The notes beneath the pieces are model-generated. The model had not been told where the DNA came from and did no database searches. It saw nothing but the letters and a program-made list of their open reading frames with translations. Below are positions 1,537 to 19,581 of a DNA stretch of 23,916 nucleotides, in pieces; within the stretch, counting starts at the first letter, position 1, and each line of letters starts with the position of its first letter. Origin of the DNA: a virus; IMG/VR virus record IMGVR_UViG_3300010157_000251, positions 1-23,916 of that record, one strand, 5' to 3'. A program made the translations under genes and the position numbers.

Positions 1537-3881
1537 GCAAGCTCGACCCCCGCGGCTCTCCCATCTGCGCCACGGACAATCTTCTTAGGTGCTGCAATAA
1601 CCGTCATTACGCCATTAATCTTATCCATTGCCATGTTGTGCATATTGTTCATGTTTTCGTGCATCTGAACCATACGGTTCATTGCTTGCGTCACATTGTC
1701 ACCCAGTTCTGCGGCAATCTTGGTGCTTGCAGCCTCTTGAGCCTCAAGCAATGGCAAGTCTAAGCCTGGGTTCGCCCCAATCCTAGCCACCATAATCTTG
1801 GTTGCAGACTCTAGCTCAGTTTTCCACTTTTCCAATTGTTCAGCGGCTTGCAACTTGGCTTGTTCCATTGCCTGCATATACTGTTGTTTTTGCGCCTCAA
1901 GTTGTGTTTCGGCTTGCAGTTTCATTTGGTGCATTTGAACGTCTGCCTGCGCCTTGGCTTGAGCTACCTGAATATCGGCTTGCGCCCGTAGTTGTTCAGC
2001 CTGCGCTGTGGCCTGCATCTTCATTTGCTCGTTTTGGGCTTGAGCTTGCATCTTCATTTGCTCAAACTGCTGCTCTGCCTGCATCTTCATGATTTCAGGG
2101 TTTGGCGGTGGTGGTTGTTGCGCCATCATTTGCTGCTTTTTCTGCAACTCTTGCATAGCCTGGTCAATCGTACCCTCAATCGGTGTGGCTTTTTTGTATG
2201 CGCCAACGCCAAACTTAACCAATTCAATCAACATAGGCACTAACTCTGGCGCTTGTTGACCCATTGGCAAGGCTTGCGTCAAGAACCCACCCATCGCTTG
2301 CAAGAACTCAACTCGCTCACGTTTGTTTTGATTTTCGTCAATCTGCACCAGACTATCTGAGTCAACTTGGATGCGGAACGAACGTAATGGCTTGTCTTGG
2401 ATTAACTGCAACGCCTGTGGGATAAGCGCCTGATCTGCCGGTTGCATACCTTGTGCGGCAGCGTACATTAAGATAGTTGTGGGCTGAAATTTAGTGCAAA
2501 TGACTTGGGCTTTTAACTGGAATAACTCACTTGCAAACAAGGCAACATCTTCTTGCATCGAGCGCAAGCGCAGTCCTGCATACTGACCCTTAATCTGTTG
2601 TGCCGTAGCGGTTTCACTAGCTGCTGTCTGTCCCCGAACAATGTCACTAATACCTGTGATTTCATAAATTTGGTTTTTGATTTCATCTCTTGCCCGATAG
2701 CATTGCAATAGAGCATTTGACAGGGTATCCAACGGCAACAAGTCAATAGACCCTTTTAAGCCGCCTTTTTCAGAGAACGCCATCCATTTATCAACAGGGA
2801 TAAGTGTGTTGTTATCGCCTTCAGTCAAAAGACGCTGTAAAGTGGGTTGTGATGCGTCATAGACCCCACGCACACGCAATGCCTTAACTAACCCGTCGAT
2901 ACGATCAGTCAAAATGTCTAGCTCTGTGGCTTGATCTTGATAAAGCACAAAGTCAGGCACAGGCACAAGCGTGTCGCTCGTCATTGTGGCGTACAACGGT
3001 TTAGCGCATGGAAAGAAATTCTCTAGCTCTAGCGGATCTTCACGTTCATCCAATATGTCTGGGCAACTCTTGCTAATCCAGTACACCTTGCCACTTTCTT
3101 TGTCCCAAATCTCGCAAATCTTTGCCCTTGTGAAATCTTTGGACTGGGTTGAATACTGTTTATTCGTTTCAGGCCCTGCATCTAATGGTATTTTTTTAGC
3201 CATTTCTTCGCCAAATCGTTCGGCAAGGCTTTCTTTTGTCATGTACACCCAACGCCAGACGCTTGTGACTTCTTCCCATGTTCGTGCAACTGAATGACCA
3301 AAATCTTTCCAATGCACATAATCAGTTGGCGCACACTCGTACTCAATTTCTTCTTGTGGCTCGACTTCTTCACCCAAAGCGCCATCAATGCCAGGCATTG
3401 CTGTTTTAATTTGTTGGCCTTCGCTGTCAACTTCGTCTACATCTTCTGTGATTTGCAGCCCATCTTCAGGAATGTCTTGCGCCCGAACGTGTGGCTCGTA
3501 GCGCACCCATGCCACGCCTCGACCACCTAAGAACCTGTCCTCAACTGCGTGTTTCATTGTCGATCTGAAATCGGTGTAATGCTCAATCTCAAAGTCCAAG
3601 GCACGTTCAATGAGTTGTGCGGCAACACGGGCAACTGGATCGTTATCGCCAAAGCGTCTAGCAACGTCTGCTTTTGGTAATCGAGCGTATACGGCAGGGA
3701 TCAGCGTTTGTACGTTAGACCACAGAATATTAAATTTAGCGGTTTCGTTTGTATTCTGATTGCGGTTGTCATCACGGTAACGCTTAACAATCTTAGTGGT
3801 GCGACCTTCCCACTTTTTAAATTCATTGTCGTATTGGCTGATTGTATTCAGCCATTTTTGCACACCAGTCAATGCTTCCAT
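1533..3881 (-). CDS. Portal protein (P22-like head-to-tail connector)
   Basis: A 782-residue portal, the dodecameric ring through which DNA is packaged and ejected. I chose ATG 3881 (MEALTGVQKW): it follows the previous stop by 1 nt and has a GAGA Shine-Dalgarno about 8 nt upstream. An in-frame TTG at 3896 would add five residues but is less likely. The N-terminal half carries portal-type features: KFNILWSNVQTLIPAVYARLPKADV, a conserved VEDRFLGGRGVAWVRYEP stretch, and ITGISDIVRGQ with nearby ETATAQQIKG. The C-terminal quarter (about residues 560-700) is a long glutamine/alanine/methionine-rich helix with 11-residue repeats, matching the long helical C-termini of P22-class portals. The order terminase, portal, scaffold supports the call. 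Genes on both sides abut or overlap it. Confidence 0.93.
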   Translation of the reverse strand: MEALTGVQKWLNTISQYDNEFKKWEGRTTKIVKRYRDDNRNQNTNETAKFNILWSNVQTLIPAVYARLPKADVARRFGDNDPVARVAAQLIERALDFEIEHYTDFRSTMKHAVEDRFLGGRGVAWVRYEPHVRAQDIPEDGLQITEDVDEVDSEGQQIKTAMPGIDGALGEEVEPQEEIEYECAPTDYVHWKDFGHSVARTWEEVTSVWRWVYMTKESLAERFGEEMAKKIPLDAGPETNKQYSTQSKDFTRAKICEIWDKESGKVYWISKSCPDILDEREDPLELENFFPCAKPLYATMTSDTLVPVPDFVLYQDQATELDILTDRIDGLVKALRVRGVYDASQPTLQRLLTEGDNNTLIPVDKWMAFSEKGGLKGSIDLLPLDTLSNALLQCYRARDEIKNQIYEITGISDIVRGQTAASETATAQQIKGQYAGLRLRSMQEDVALFASELFQLKAQVICTKFQPTTILMYAAAQGMQPADQALIPQALQLIQDKPLRSFRIQVDSDSLVQIDENQNKRERVEFLQAMGGFLTQALPMGQQAPELVPMLIELVKFGVGAYKKATPIEGTIDQAMQELQKKQQMMAQQPPPPNPEIMKMQAEQQFEQMKMQAQAQNEQMKMQATAQAEQLRAQADIQVAQAKAQADVQMHQMKLQAETQLEAQKQQYMQAMEQAKLQAAEQLEKWKTELESATKIMVARIGANPGLDLPLLEAQEAASTKIAAELGDNVTQAMNRMVQMHENMNNMHNMAMDKINGVMTVIAAPKKIVRGADGRAAGVELA
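2011..2090 (-). repeat. 33-nt tandem repeat encoding hendecad coiled coil in the portal
   Basis: Three imperfect copies begin at 2011, 2044 and 2077, exactly 33 nt apart. Each contains the core tgcatcttcat. They encode the 11-residue unit MKMQAxxQxEQ. At protein level weaker copies continue for about six units (roughly residues 598-663). Eleven-residue periodicity is typical of straight, parallel helical bundles. Confidence 0.85.
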
Positions 3882-13405: not shown

Positions 13406-13434
13406 ATATTAAGCTAACTAAACAGATTCGTCAA
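13406..13434 (-). promoter_or_regulatory. Leftward promoter of the recombination operon with embedded operator
   Basis: On the minus strand TTGACG (13434-13429), a 17-nt spacer and TAATAT (13411-13406) make a good sigma70 promoter. The spacer and the start of the -10 are the operator, plus-strand ATTAAGCTAACTAAACAGAT at 13408-13427. The same 20 bases occur in inverted orientation at 14327-14346. A repressor bound here would block RNA polymerase directly. The predicted start is near 13399, leaving a leader of about 38 nt. Confidence 0.8.
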
Positions 13435-13476: not shown

Positions 13477-13692
13477 ATGAATACAACAGAAATCATCAAT
13501 TGTTTAGGTGGCACGTTTGCCGTAGCAAAGATGTGCCGAGTTTCGCCAGCTGCCGTGAGTCAATGGAAACATAACGGGCTGCCTGGTTACCAACTGGTGT
13601 GGATTGCCGCCGAACTTGAAAAAAAATCTGATGGCAAATGGAATCGTAAAATGGTTCGTAATTGGCAACAAATATGGCCAGAGTTGCATTAG
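13477..13692 (+). CDS. Cro/YdaS-like helix-turn-helix repressor
   Basis: A 71-residue DNA-binding protein: IINCLGGTFAVAKMCRVSPAAVSQWKHNGLP (about residues 6-36) is the helix-turn-helix of the Cro/YdaS family, with AAVSQW as recognition helix. The C-terminus (KWNRKMVRNWQQIWPELH) is basic and aromatic. I chose ATG 13477 because the longer frame (to 13333) would run back through the promoter region and into erf. No Shine-Dalgarno precedes this ATG, and a -10-like box ends 7 nt before it, so the mRNA may be leaderless, as for lambda cI from PRM. It is the likely repressor of three operons carrying the TAAG-N4-CTWA operator. Confidence 0.88.
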   Translation: MNTTEIINCLGGTFAVAKMCRVSPAAVSQWKHNGLPGYQLVWIAAELEKKSDGKWNRKMVRNWQQIWPELH

Positions 13693-13763
13693 ACTGATTA
13701 AGCCTTTAGCAAGCAGAAACAACAACTGGTAAGGGTCTAGTTTCAACAGCCTAGCTTTAGGGC

Positions 13764-13793
13764 TTGGCACATCGGAACAGACGGTGGTAGAAT
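13764..13793 (+). promoter_or_regulatory. Strong-looking promoter of the candidate small RNA
   Basis: TTGGCA (13764-13769), an 18-bp spacer and TAGAAT (13788-13793) each match the sigma70 boxes at five of six positions. The predicted start, near 13800, falls just before the first arm of the RNA structure at 13806. No operator sequence is present, so expression may be constitutive. Confidence 0.7.
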
Positions 13794-13799
13794 CAAATT

Positions 13800-13934
13800 G
13801 TTGTCTTGGTCGACGATGTAAGCCGTTTTAGTGTGTATCTTGATTTTTTGATAAATGACGTAAAGAATATTTATCAAAGAATGTCCTCTTTATAAGAGGT
13901 CGACCAACAAGATGCACTCTAAAACGGCTTTTTT
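13800..13934 (+). ncRNA. Candidate structured phage small RNA of about 135 nt
   Basis: Four pairings are visible. A: TTGGTCGAC (13806-13814) with GTCGACCAA (13899-13907), 9 bp perfect. B: 13820-13842 with 13908-13930, 23 positions with one mismatch and one G-U, followed by six Ts. C: 13843-13856 with 13869-13882, 14 positions with one G-U. D: CCTCTT (13885-13890) with AAGAGG (13894-13899). C and D lie inside B. A crosses B, and the linkers (5 and 0 nt) are too short for both to form fully, so A and B are probably alternatives. It has its own promoter and terminator and no coding frame. It could be a trans-acting RNA, an antisense RNA or an attenuator. I know no family for it. Confidence 0.72.
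13820..13934 (+). terminator. Intrinsic terminator formed by the long stem of the small RNA
   Basis: The closing stem pairs AAGCCGTTTTAG (13820-13831) with CTAAAACGGCTT (13919-13930) and ends in T 13929-13934. The intervening RNA folds into further hairpins. It should stop transcription from the small RNA promoter and from the repressor gene. Confidence 0.7.
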
Positions 13935-13970
13935 ATTGCTCAAAATAACTGTCAGGGCGCATTAGCTAAC

Positions 13971-14108
13971 ATGGTAGCCGCCAGTACCCAGAACAGGTTA
14001 AATAAAGAATTAAAGTTGTATCCCGTGTGACCCGCACGCCCCAGTAGAGAAATCGAACAGGATATAGACAGAGTTTGGAAACAAACTAAAACCATTTACT
14101 CTAGGTAG
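13971..14108 (+). pseudogene. Short reading frame interrupted by an in-frame TGA
   Basis: ATG 13971 opens MVAASTQNRLNKELKLYPV, then TGA at 14028-14030, and the same frame continues for 25 codons (PARPSREIEQDIDRVWKQTK and more) to TAG at 14106-14108. The second part is helical and charged and looks like real protein. This is either a decayed gene, a readthrough product or chance. There is no Shine-Dalgarno before the ATG and no start codon after the TGA. It sits between the small RNA terminator and the rightward promoter, in otherwise non-coding sequence. Confidence 0.35.
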
Positions 14109-14166
14109 TGATCTTTTACAGCTGCAAGGACTGCTACTGTTTTAGGGAATCTAGGGGTGGGGTGAG

Positions 14167-14295
14167 ATGCCTGCCATAAACCTAACAAGGTACAGGTCTG
14201 TCGTAAAGGATTTATCCTCAACTACTATCAGTAGCTTGCTACTACGGTGGGTGGGTATAAGGGTAGGGGAACTATATTTAAATAAAACAAAGTAA
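14167..14295 (+). CDS. Possible 42-residue peptide upstream of the rightward promoter
   Basis: ATG 14167 is preceded by the purine-rich GGGGTGGGGTGAG and opens a 42-codon frame ending TAA at 14293-14295. It starts MPAINLTRYRSVVKDLSSTT, contains a hydrophobic stretch (SSLLLRWVGIRVG) and has a lysine tail. No promoter is clear and the frame crosses a G-quadruplex motif, so the region may instead be regulatory DNA. No family is recognised. I treat it as a weak candidate. Confidence 0.25.
   Translation: MPAINLTRYRSVVKDLSSTTISSLLLRWVGIRVGELYLNKTK
14249..14269 (+). other. G-quadruplex motif upstream of the rightward promoter
   Basis: GGG-T-GGG-TATAA-GGG-TA-GGGG has four G tracts with loops of 1, 5 and 2 nt, meeting the usual G3N1-7 rule. 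A small hairpin AGTAG-CTTG-CTACT lies just upstream (14230-14243), and an AT-rich run (actatatttaaataaaac) follows at once. It could affect replication initiation or transcription here. Confidence 0.55.
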
Positions 14296-14319
14296 GGGTT
14301 ATCACCTAGTTAATATTTC

Positions 14320-14348
14320 TTGATTGATCTGTTTAGTTAGCTTAATGT
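14320..14348 (+). promoter_or_regulatory. Rightward promoter with embedded operator
   Basis: TTGATT (14320-14325), a 17-bp spacer and TAATGT (14343-14348) form the promoter. ATCTGTTTAGTTAGCTTAAT at 14327-14346 is the exact reverse complement of the operator at 13408-13427 and holds the same place between the boxes. Both copies point toward their own operon. ATG 14368 follows with AAAGGG as ribosome-binding site. Confidence 0.75.
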
Positions 14349-14367
14349 ATCCTTTTAAAGGGAATAT

Positions 14368-14640
14368 ATGTCAACAGAACAAAAGATATTGCGGTATTGC
14401 ATTGAGCCTAAAACAACAACTGATATTGCTGATTATTGTGGCCTTGAAAAGATCAGCATCTACACACAACTTGCCAAACTTCAGCGCAATAACAAGATTG
14501 AGAAACGTGGGGACGGTAGGCGTGGCTCACCTTGTGTTTATGTCACTATTCGACAAGCACCGACTGCTACAGAATCTTCAGATAATTACGAAAACTTAGT
14601 TGTTAAACACGCTCATAACCCGTTTGGACTGCGCTTATGA
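14368..14640 (+). CDS. Winged-helix DNA-binding protein, first gene of rightward operon
   Basis: A 90-residue protein starting at ATG 14368, with AAGGG about 6 nt upstream. The first 60 residues form a winged helix: EQKILRYCIEPKTTTDIADYCGLEKISIYTQLAKLQRNNKIEKRG, with the recognition helix near SIYTQLAKLQ, followed by a wing carrying GDGRRGSP. The tail is unstructured. As the first gene after the repressed rightward promoter it may be an early regulator or replication-initiation helper. There is no Cro-type resemblance, so it is not simply a second copy of the repressor. Confidence 0.75.
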   Translation: MSTEQKILRYCIEPKTTTDIADYCGLEKISIYTQLAKLQRNNKIEKRGDGRRGSPCVYVTIRQAPTATESSDNYENLVVKHAHNPFGLRL

Positions 14641-18999: not shown

Positions 19000-19020
19000 G
19001 TTATTTAACAGGAGATGCCA

Positions 19021-19581
19021 ATGACTTACCAAGTTAAAACAACGATTCCGTGCAGCATTTGCAGCGAAAAATCTGTTGCTCGACATTTGTGCCGCACTCA
19101 TTACAATCGAGCTAGAGCAAAAAACGAATTGCATTTGTATTTGCCTGTAACCATGCAAGAATCGTTTGAAGCAAAAATTAATAAAACTGATACTTGTTGG
19201 ATTTGGAACGGAACTAAAAATAGTTACGGGTATGGGATTGTTCGTTGTGGCGAACACCAAATGAGAGCGCATAGATTTTCTTATGAGCATTTTATTGGAA
19301 AAATACCTAATGGCAAAATAATTATGCACTTGTGCGATAACCCGCCATGCGTAAACCCAGAGCATCTTAAAGTAGGAACAAAAGCCGAAAACAATGCTGA
19401 TGCAGCTAATAAACGTAGACATAATTACGGATTGGATCATTGGAACGGCAGACTTTCTGAACAAGATATTGCAGACATTTGGCAAAGCACCGAACGTCAA
19501 AGCATCATTGCCAAAAAGTATGGGGTTCATCAATCGCATATTAGTCGGTTAAAAAAACTTGTAACAGGATATAAGAGATAG
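19021..19581 (+). CDS. Homing-type HNH endonuclease with zinc finger and C-terminal HTH
   Basis: A 186-residue protein. An N-terminal zinc finger uses C11, C14, C24 and H27 ([20 protein letters not shown]). The HNH nuclease runs from [14 protein letters not shown] through [12 protein letters not shown] (82-93) to [15 protein letters not shown] (102-116). The C-terminus has a helix-turn-helix-like part ([36 protein letters not shown]). This is the layout of free-standing homing endonucleases. ATG 19021 is 7 nt after AGGAG; ATG 19015 is too close to it. It is antisense to all neighbours, fitting a mobile gene inserted into the virion block. Confidence 0.9.

Follow-up and report, generated by a model that had tools for sequence, protein, structure and literature searches.

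A structured RNA, here called RNA X, stands between the regulator gene and the rightward genes of a freshwater phage. Comparison with its relatives leaves us nearly certain that it represents a real, undescribed family in which a pairing between a hairpin loop and a helical junction has been under selection. While the new family is well supported, its mechanism is something that we infer.

RNA X and its place in the window

The window, that is, the whole stretch of DNA analysed, is the virus record IMGVR_UViG_3300010157_000251 with its 23,916 bases. Portal, terminase, Erf, single-strand-binding and exonuclease-like genes lie on its minus strand. The upstream neighbour of X encodes a 70-aa regulator that matches Pfam P22_Cro at 7.8e-7, slightly under the curated cut-off; its YdaS match is also weak. 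From 13693 to 14367 the window holds no convincing gene, in agreement with the first-pass annotation, which had seen no coding content in the RNA. A 19-nt stretch, TTAAGCTAACTAAACAGAT, lies at 13409-13427 between promoter-like boxes of the leftward operon and recurs at 14327-14345, as an exact reverse complement, before the rightward gene at 14368; these inverted copies are probably shared operators of the regulator. An open reading frame at 19015-19581 (+), on the opposite strand to its neighbours, resembles an HNH-type homing endonuclease, judging its translation by eye.

The first-pass annotation had proposed a near-consensus promoter, TTGGCA-18-TAGAAT, with a start at about 13800. Both boxes are where it had placed them (Table 1), and hairpin P1 begins with G13800, seventh in line downstream of the -10 box. 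Equally good promoter-like matches occur three times in the window against 2.6 ± 1.7 expected, and support for the promoter thus comes from its fixed register in the relatives rather than from the rarity of the match: although the contexts are unrelated, 76 of 94 distinct upstream sequences have a -10-like box whose end is 12 nt away from the P1 loop. X is very probably transcribed from the predicted promoter.

Two small hairpins precede X at 13748-13786 and in relatives, with kept loops AGCUUUA and GAAAGA or GAACAGA, respectively, and with arms that co-vary (AGGUU/GACCU, AGUUC/GAACU; CACCG/CGGUG, AUCUG/CAGAU). The second of them sits between the -35 and -10 boxes and may be a boxB-like site in the read-through RNA or an operator. 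In six loci (L028, L052, L056, L057, L108 and L153) these hairpins are replaced or extended by a segment whose ends pair, GTTGGTATGT ... ACATACCAAC; it lies between the regulator gene and X and looks like another structured RNA.

The minimum-energy fold of X has -54.2 kcal/mol compared with -25.4 ± 3.3 for shuffled sequences (z -8.7). The minus strand folds less well (-40.5 kcal/mol) and scores lower with the family covariance model (55 bits against 106 on the plus strand), and we therefore take plus as the sense strand. The complete motif of P1, loop pairing, P2 and U-run occurs at a single site in the window and is absent from the other strand; its search-motif score there is 77, the maximum in four shuffled windows being 45. 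The compact set of helices described by the first-pass annotation is confirmed. Its helix B, which we call P2, has one U.U mismatch and one G.U wobble as claimed, and the T6 run is in place; helices C and D are present in the minimum-energy fold but are not conserved, being replaced among relatives. Hairpin P1 and a loop-junction complementarity of 8-9 bp had been overlooked. At the end of X a G+C-containing P2 base (AAGCCG/CGGCUU) is followed by U6, as in an intrinsic terminator. A simple terminator scan of the window did not list it because that scan permits loops of 3-8 nt only.

Table 1. Positions of RNA X, its parts and its neighbours in the window
Feature	Position	Strand	Remarks
70-aa Cro/YdaS-like regulator gene	13480-13692	+	Upstream neighbour of X, outside the RNA
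Promoter (predicted)	13764-13793	+	-35 TTGGCA 13764-13769, 18-nt spacer, -10 TAGAAT 13788-13793
RNA X	13800-13934	+	Predicted +1 at G13800, 3' end within the U-run
Hairpin P1	13800-13817	+	13800-13805 with 13812-13817, loop 13806-13811 UUGGUC; minimum-energy fold
Loop strand of loop-junction helix, UUGGUCGAC	13806-13814	+	Pairs with 13899-13907
P2 5' strand (helix B)	13820-13842	+	23 positions; covariation
Exchangeable inner hairpins	13843-13899	+	Helix C 13843-13857 with 13868-13882 (about); helix D 13885-13890 with 13894-13899
Partner strand of loop-junction helix, GUCGACCAA	13899-13907	+	Directly 5' of the P2 3' strand
P2 3' strand	13908-13930	+	Base of the terminator stem; covariation
U-run finishing the intrinsic terminator	13929-13934	+	U6; sequence
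Structured non-coding RNA Y	13948-14268	+	Directly downstream of X

Relatives and covariation

IMG/VR was searched for relatives with the regulator and with RNA patterns. We parsed 206 partly overlapping loci, which correspond to about 120 distinct viral contigs (at least 121 in the hand-made listing used for the within-sample allele test below) and to 75 distinct RNAs. The low-scoring parses L205 and L155 and the unparsed loci L017 and L037 mark the limits of the script; other unparsed loci are mostly contig ends or chance pattern matches. The distinct RNAs span 86-136 nt from stem to stem. P2 has 22-24 bp in 71 of the 75, and the segment inside it runs from 10 to 61 nt with sequences unrelated among relatives; helices C and D are freely exchanged in the family. 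Type I RNAs have a linker of 0-4 nt from P1 to the base of P2 (up to two bases overlap in some parses), type II RNAs one of 8-13 nt. The T-run, itself a required element of the search that gave the 75 RNAs, is present in the relatives inspected and interrupted in L007 and L040.

A type I covariance model run on 20 whole virus records found one locus each in 18 of them, the second match per record being the same hairpin read on the opposite strand; the model missed the records of L017 and L049, whose RNAs are of the divergent types III and II. The structure is also found in the complete circular phage genomes MW202674 and MW202520 from GenBank, where the annotation has only short hypothetical ORFs across it. 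That X falls into no recognised family, as the first-pass annotation had put it, was borne out by the Rfam search it had called for: Rfam 15 has no family at or above its gathering cut-off over X and nothing credible below. The sub-threshold matches, found at permissive scores over part of the region, are microRNA and snoRNA long-hairpin models far below their cut-offs. The window contains no tRNA or tmRNA, and no similar DNA was found on plasmids. The model also found no match in 399 sampled genomes from the order to which Achromobacter sp. HZ34 belongs, a weak result obtained with strict filters and without a positive control.

To assess covariation we aligned 31 type I RNAs with MAFFT. Pairing is kept in 95.7% of the cells of P1, 96.3% of those of P2 and 100% of those of the loop helix, which was scored over six columns. 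Two-sided changes occur at 20 of 35 pairs, including 13 of the 23 in P2 and 5 of the 6 in the loop helix, where up to four pair types are found at one position. There are 121 cells with two-sided changes; shuffling gives 30, and sliding of the partners no more than 15. These counts lean somewhat towards the structure, which was itself read from the sequences. Diversity in the loop columns is twice that of P1 and P2, the loop pairing nonetheless always being kept, and RNAs with identical P2 carry two to four different loop alleles. In a cross-test that is independent of the alignment, the loop and partner strands of 17 out of 17 alleles were complementary to each other (two of these alleles derive from low-scoring parses), compared with none of the 272 cross-combinations. 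The partner abuts P2 with a gap of 0 nt in 67 of the 75 RNAs. In L017 the loop pairing is only 5 bp; the search script demanded at least five paired bases, and RNAs lacking the loop pairing would therefore go unlisted. On this comparative evidence, the P1 loop is selected for complementarity to the strand at the top of P2.

The first-pass annotation had asked whether the helices decay in related phages without compensatory changes. Instead, many two-sided changes have left P1, P2 and the loop pairing intact, and the central proposal of that annotation, a structured RNA gene with its own promoter and terminator, has gained comparative support.

Genome contexts and the downstream RNA Y

X stands behind a Cro-like gene in most loci. 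In L061 it precedes a capsid-like gene, and in L063 it follows a gene for an endolysin-type peptidase. In L082 X immediately follows a tRNA-Thr gene (anticodon TGT, 3484-3559), which in turn comes after a different Cro-like gene, and further loci place X in yet other genome positions. Found in several genome modules, X therefore appears as a portable unit and not as part of one operon, and its position, which the first-pass annotation had likened to that of lambdoid regulatory RNAs, is not fixed across the family. In phage lambda the terminator region nutR/tR1 lies between cro and the replication genes. The X terminator likewise stands between a Cro-like gene and the rightward genes; unlike nutR/tR1, X has its own promoter in a fixed register, a covarying loop-junction helix and relatives in other modules.

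The type II gene order is erf, the cro-like gene, X, a replication-type gene and the gene for replication protein P. In L094 and L039, and likewise in MW202520, the replication-type gene begins 16-17 nt after P2; its start codon lies some 16 nt past the end of P2, which leaves no room for a promoter of its own. The genes downstream of X are co-directional in nearly all contexts, the next gene being opposite in L201 and L052.

In type I loci a second structured RNA, Y, usually begins within some 20 nt of X (L177 has no evident Y). In the window, Y shows two-sided changes at 14 of 85 consensus pairs in an alignment of 19 relatives; its single-sequence fold is no better than shuffles (z 0.08). 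The types of Y differ between loci and are exchanged independently of X. In five loci (L157, L183, L188, L213 and L235), Y matches the Betaproteobacteria-1 RNA, Rfam RF02932, with 81-98 bits at a cut-off of 49.4. Neither the Y of the window nor the Y types of some other loci match any Rfam family, RF02932 included, and X itself does not match the RF02932 model: the Betaproteobacteria-1 RNA is the downstream partner of X in these five loci and distinct from it. RF02932 passes its cut-off in 4 of the 399 bacterial genomes; in the bacterial loci inspected by eye no X was found directly upstream of it, a weak result given that some of these loci were not in RNA orientation. A literature search returned no paper on RF02932. 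X had been called a stand-alone RNA, and it does have its own promoter and terminator; with Y or a replication gene directly downstream, reachable only through the X terminator, it is only partly so.

Possible functions of the loop-junction pairing

Closed P2 would be about 64 Å long (~23 x 2.8), with P1 at its base and the partner strand at its top. By this rough A-form estimate, a type I molecule can hardly hold the loop helix while P2 is closed; in type II the loop pairing may coexist with P2. Since this geometry would bar the pairing in a finished type I molecule, it would have to act either co-transcriptionally, against the terminator, or between molecules. We folded the transcript stepwise, allowing nested folds only. 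For transcripts ending at the partner strand, 63 of 67 type I RNAs include the loop-partner pairing in their minimum-energy fold, and after 12-15 nt of the P2 3' strand P1 plus P2 beats the loop-partner helix in nearly all. When a foreign loop allele is swapped in, the median advantage, about 4.4 kcal/mol, falls to 1.1 kcal/mol. Once the nested fold is complete, 70 of 75 RNAs have their P1 loop unpaired and 72 of 75 their partner strand. In these models the loop pairing is consistent with a short-lived helix in competition with the terminator; they also leave both strands free for intermolecular contact.

Our tentative first choice, held with less than even confidence, is that X is a promoter-proximal two-state switch, which would gate read-through and give off a stable small RNA as well. 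Transcription would start at the first base of P1, and the RNA would end at the intrinsic-type terminator formed by the 23-bp P2. Once the partner strand emerges, the nascent P1 loop would pair with it and block full closure of P2; termination would be delayed and the polymerase would run on into Y or, in one subtype, into the replication gene. Were P2 to close first, termination would yield a stable small RNA whose two ends are buried and whose complementary strands are free. A weaker suggestion is that a nascent copy is bound by these free strands and so driven to terminate; such self-recognising feedback would account for the high variety of loop alleles. We rank the switch first because of the elements downstream, a replication gene or Y, and the co-directional genes. 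Since P1 plus P2 wins widely at equilibrium, the gate would rest on kinetics. Against a switch it can be said that the mechanism has no need for a near-constant 23-bp P2, that the geometric exclusion holds for the type I majority and not clearly for type II, and that the next gene is reversed in L201 and L052.

Phage P4 CI RNA, P1/P7 c4 RNA and the antisense attenuation of plasmid pT181 are attenuators with self-derived small RNAs. The proposed switch resembles them in that a leader controls termination of its own transcript via short complementary stretches. Unlike them, X has no sequence or Rfam match, its exclusion would be geometric instead of resting on shared bases, and action in trans is putative. 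Leader complementarity of the P4 CI/c4 type was not found within the flanking 450 nt, where only the loop and partner strands, mutually complementary, were compared. Pairing of the loop with Y or with an upstream leader was likewise considered and rejected: the 450 nt on either side have no excess complementarity over swapped alleles. Nor were P1 loop alleles significantly more different within a sample than between samples (2/31 vs 12%; 1345 of 5000 permutations), and self-recognition thus draws no support from the sample test. We think it rather improbable that X is either a self-recognising switch, in which released RNA forces allele-specific termination of nascent copies, or a unit of protein-free particle assembly.

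The constancy of P2, to which the switch is indifferent, is what lends substantial probability to an assembly of RNA molecules, although we consider this reading unlikely on balance. The P1 loop of one stable small RNA would pair with the junction strand of the next, and dimers, rings or filaments would result; with P1 stacking on the 23-bp P2, each molecule would be a rigid rod that carries the complementary strands at its opposite ends, both of them exposed in the finished fold. The fixed P2 length around an inner part of 10-61 nt fits such a rod, and in the few RNAs with flexible linkers P2 varies from 19 to 25 bp. Assembly leaves the promoterless element behind the terminator unexplained. 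It also does not account for a seventh pair (columns 17-115), beyond the 6-nt loop, that is kept as A-U in four RNAs lacking the P1 closing pair, which suggests that P1 opens. The packaging RNA (pRNA) of phi29 is likewise small, and its complementary loops differ from phage to phage; X is set apart by having no Rfam match, another genome position and no phi29-type packaging context. Covariation cannot distinguish intramolecular from intermolecular contact, and the loop-junction covariations known earlier from GOLLD and ROOL RNAs turned out to be intermolecular contacts (PMC12286853). Like GOLLD and ROOL, X is an ornate phage-borne RNA with no known protein partner and, in L082, a tRNA nearby; unlike these RNAs of >600 nt, it has 86-136 nt, it matches neither in Rfam, and its multimers are only hypothetical.

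Improbable, in our judgement, is an ordinary protein-binding small RNA in which the loop pairing is a tertiary contact made while P2 is bent or open in part, and in which the terminator does no more than end the RNA. The compact fold with both ends paired, the own promoter and terminator and the portability between modules would suit it; against it stand the hypervariable loop, the lack of any unpaired sequence conserved from type to type, and a linker of 0-4 nt, with which the contact does not suit a closed 23-bp P2. Still less probable is an antisense RNA whose loop or partner, both exposed in the finished fold, would pair with another phage or host RNA, given that 17 loop alleles would require 17 co-varying targets. 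A mere strong terminator between transcription units, with structure by chance, is the least credible reading and very improbable indeed: P2 does end in a U-run at which transcription from the regulator promoter would stop, yet the covariation of P1, P2 and loop, the fixed promoter register and the occurrence of the unit in other modules exceed what a terminator needs.

The X family, absent from Rfam, is found in more than 100 freshwater phage contigs, and it links to the equally unexplained structured RNA Y, which is the Betaproteobacteria-1 RNA in some phages and of Rfam-unmatched types in others. Its hypervariable loop helix would serve either the control of termination or the joining of RNA molecules, a prediction that is easily tested. 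If the RNA is self-recognising, the hypervariable loop would set RNA-based compatibility groups among co-infecting phages.
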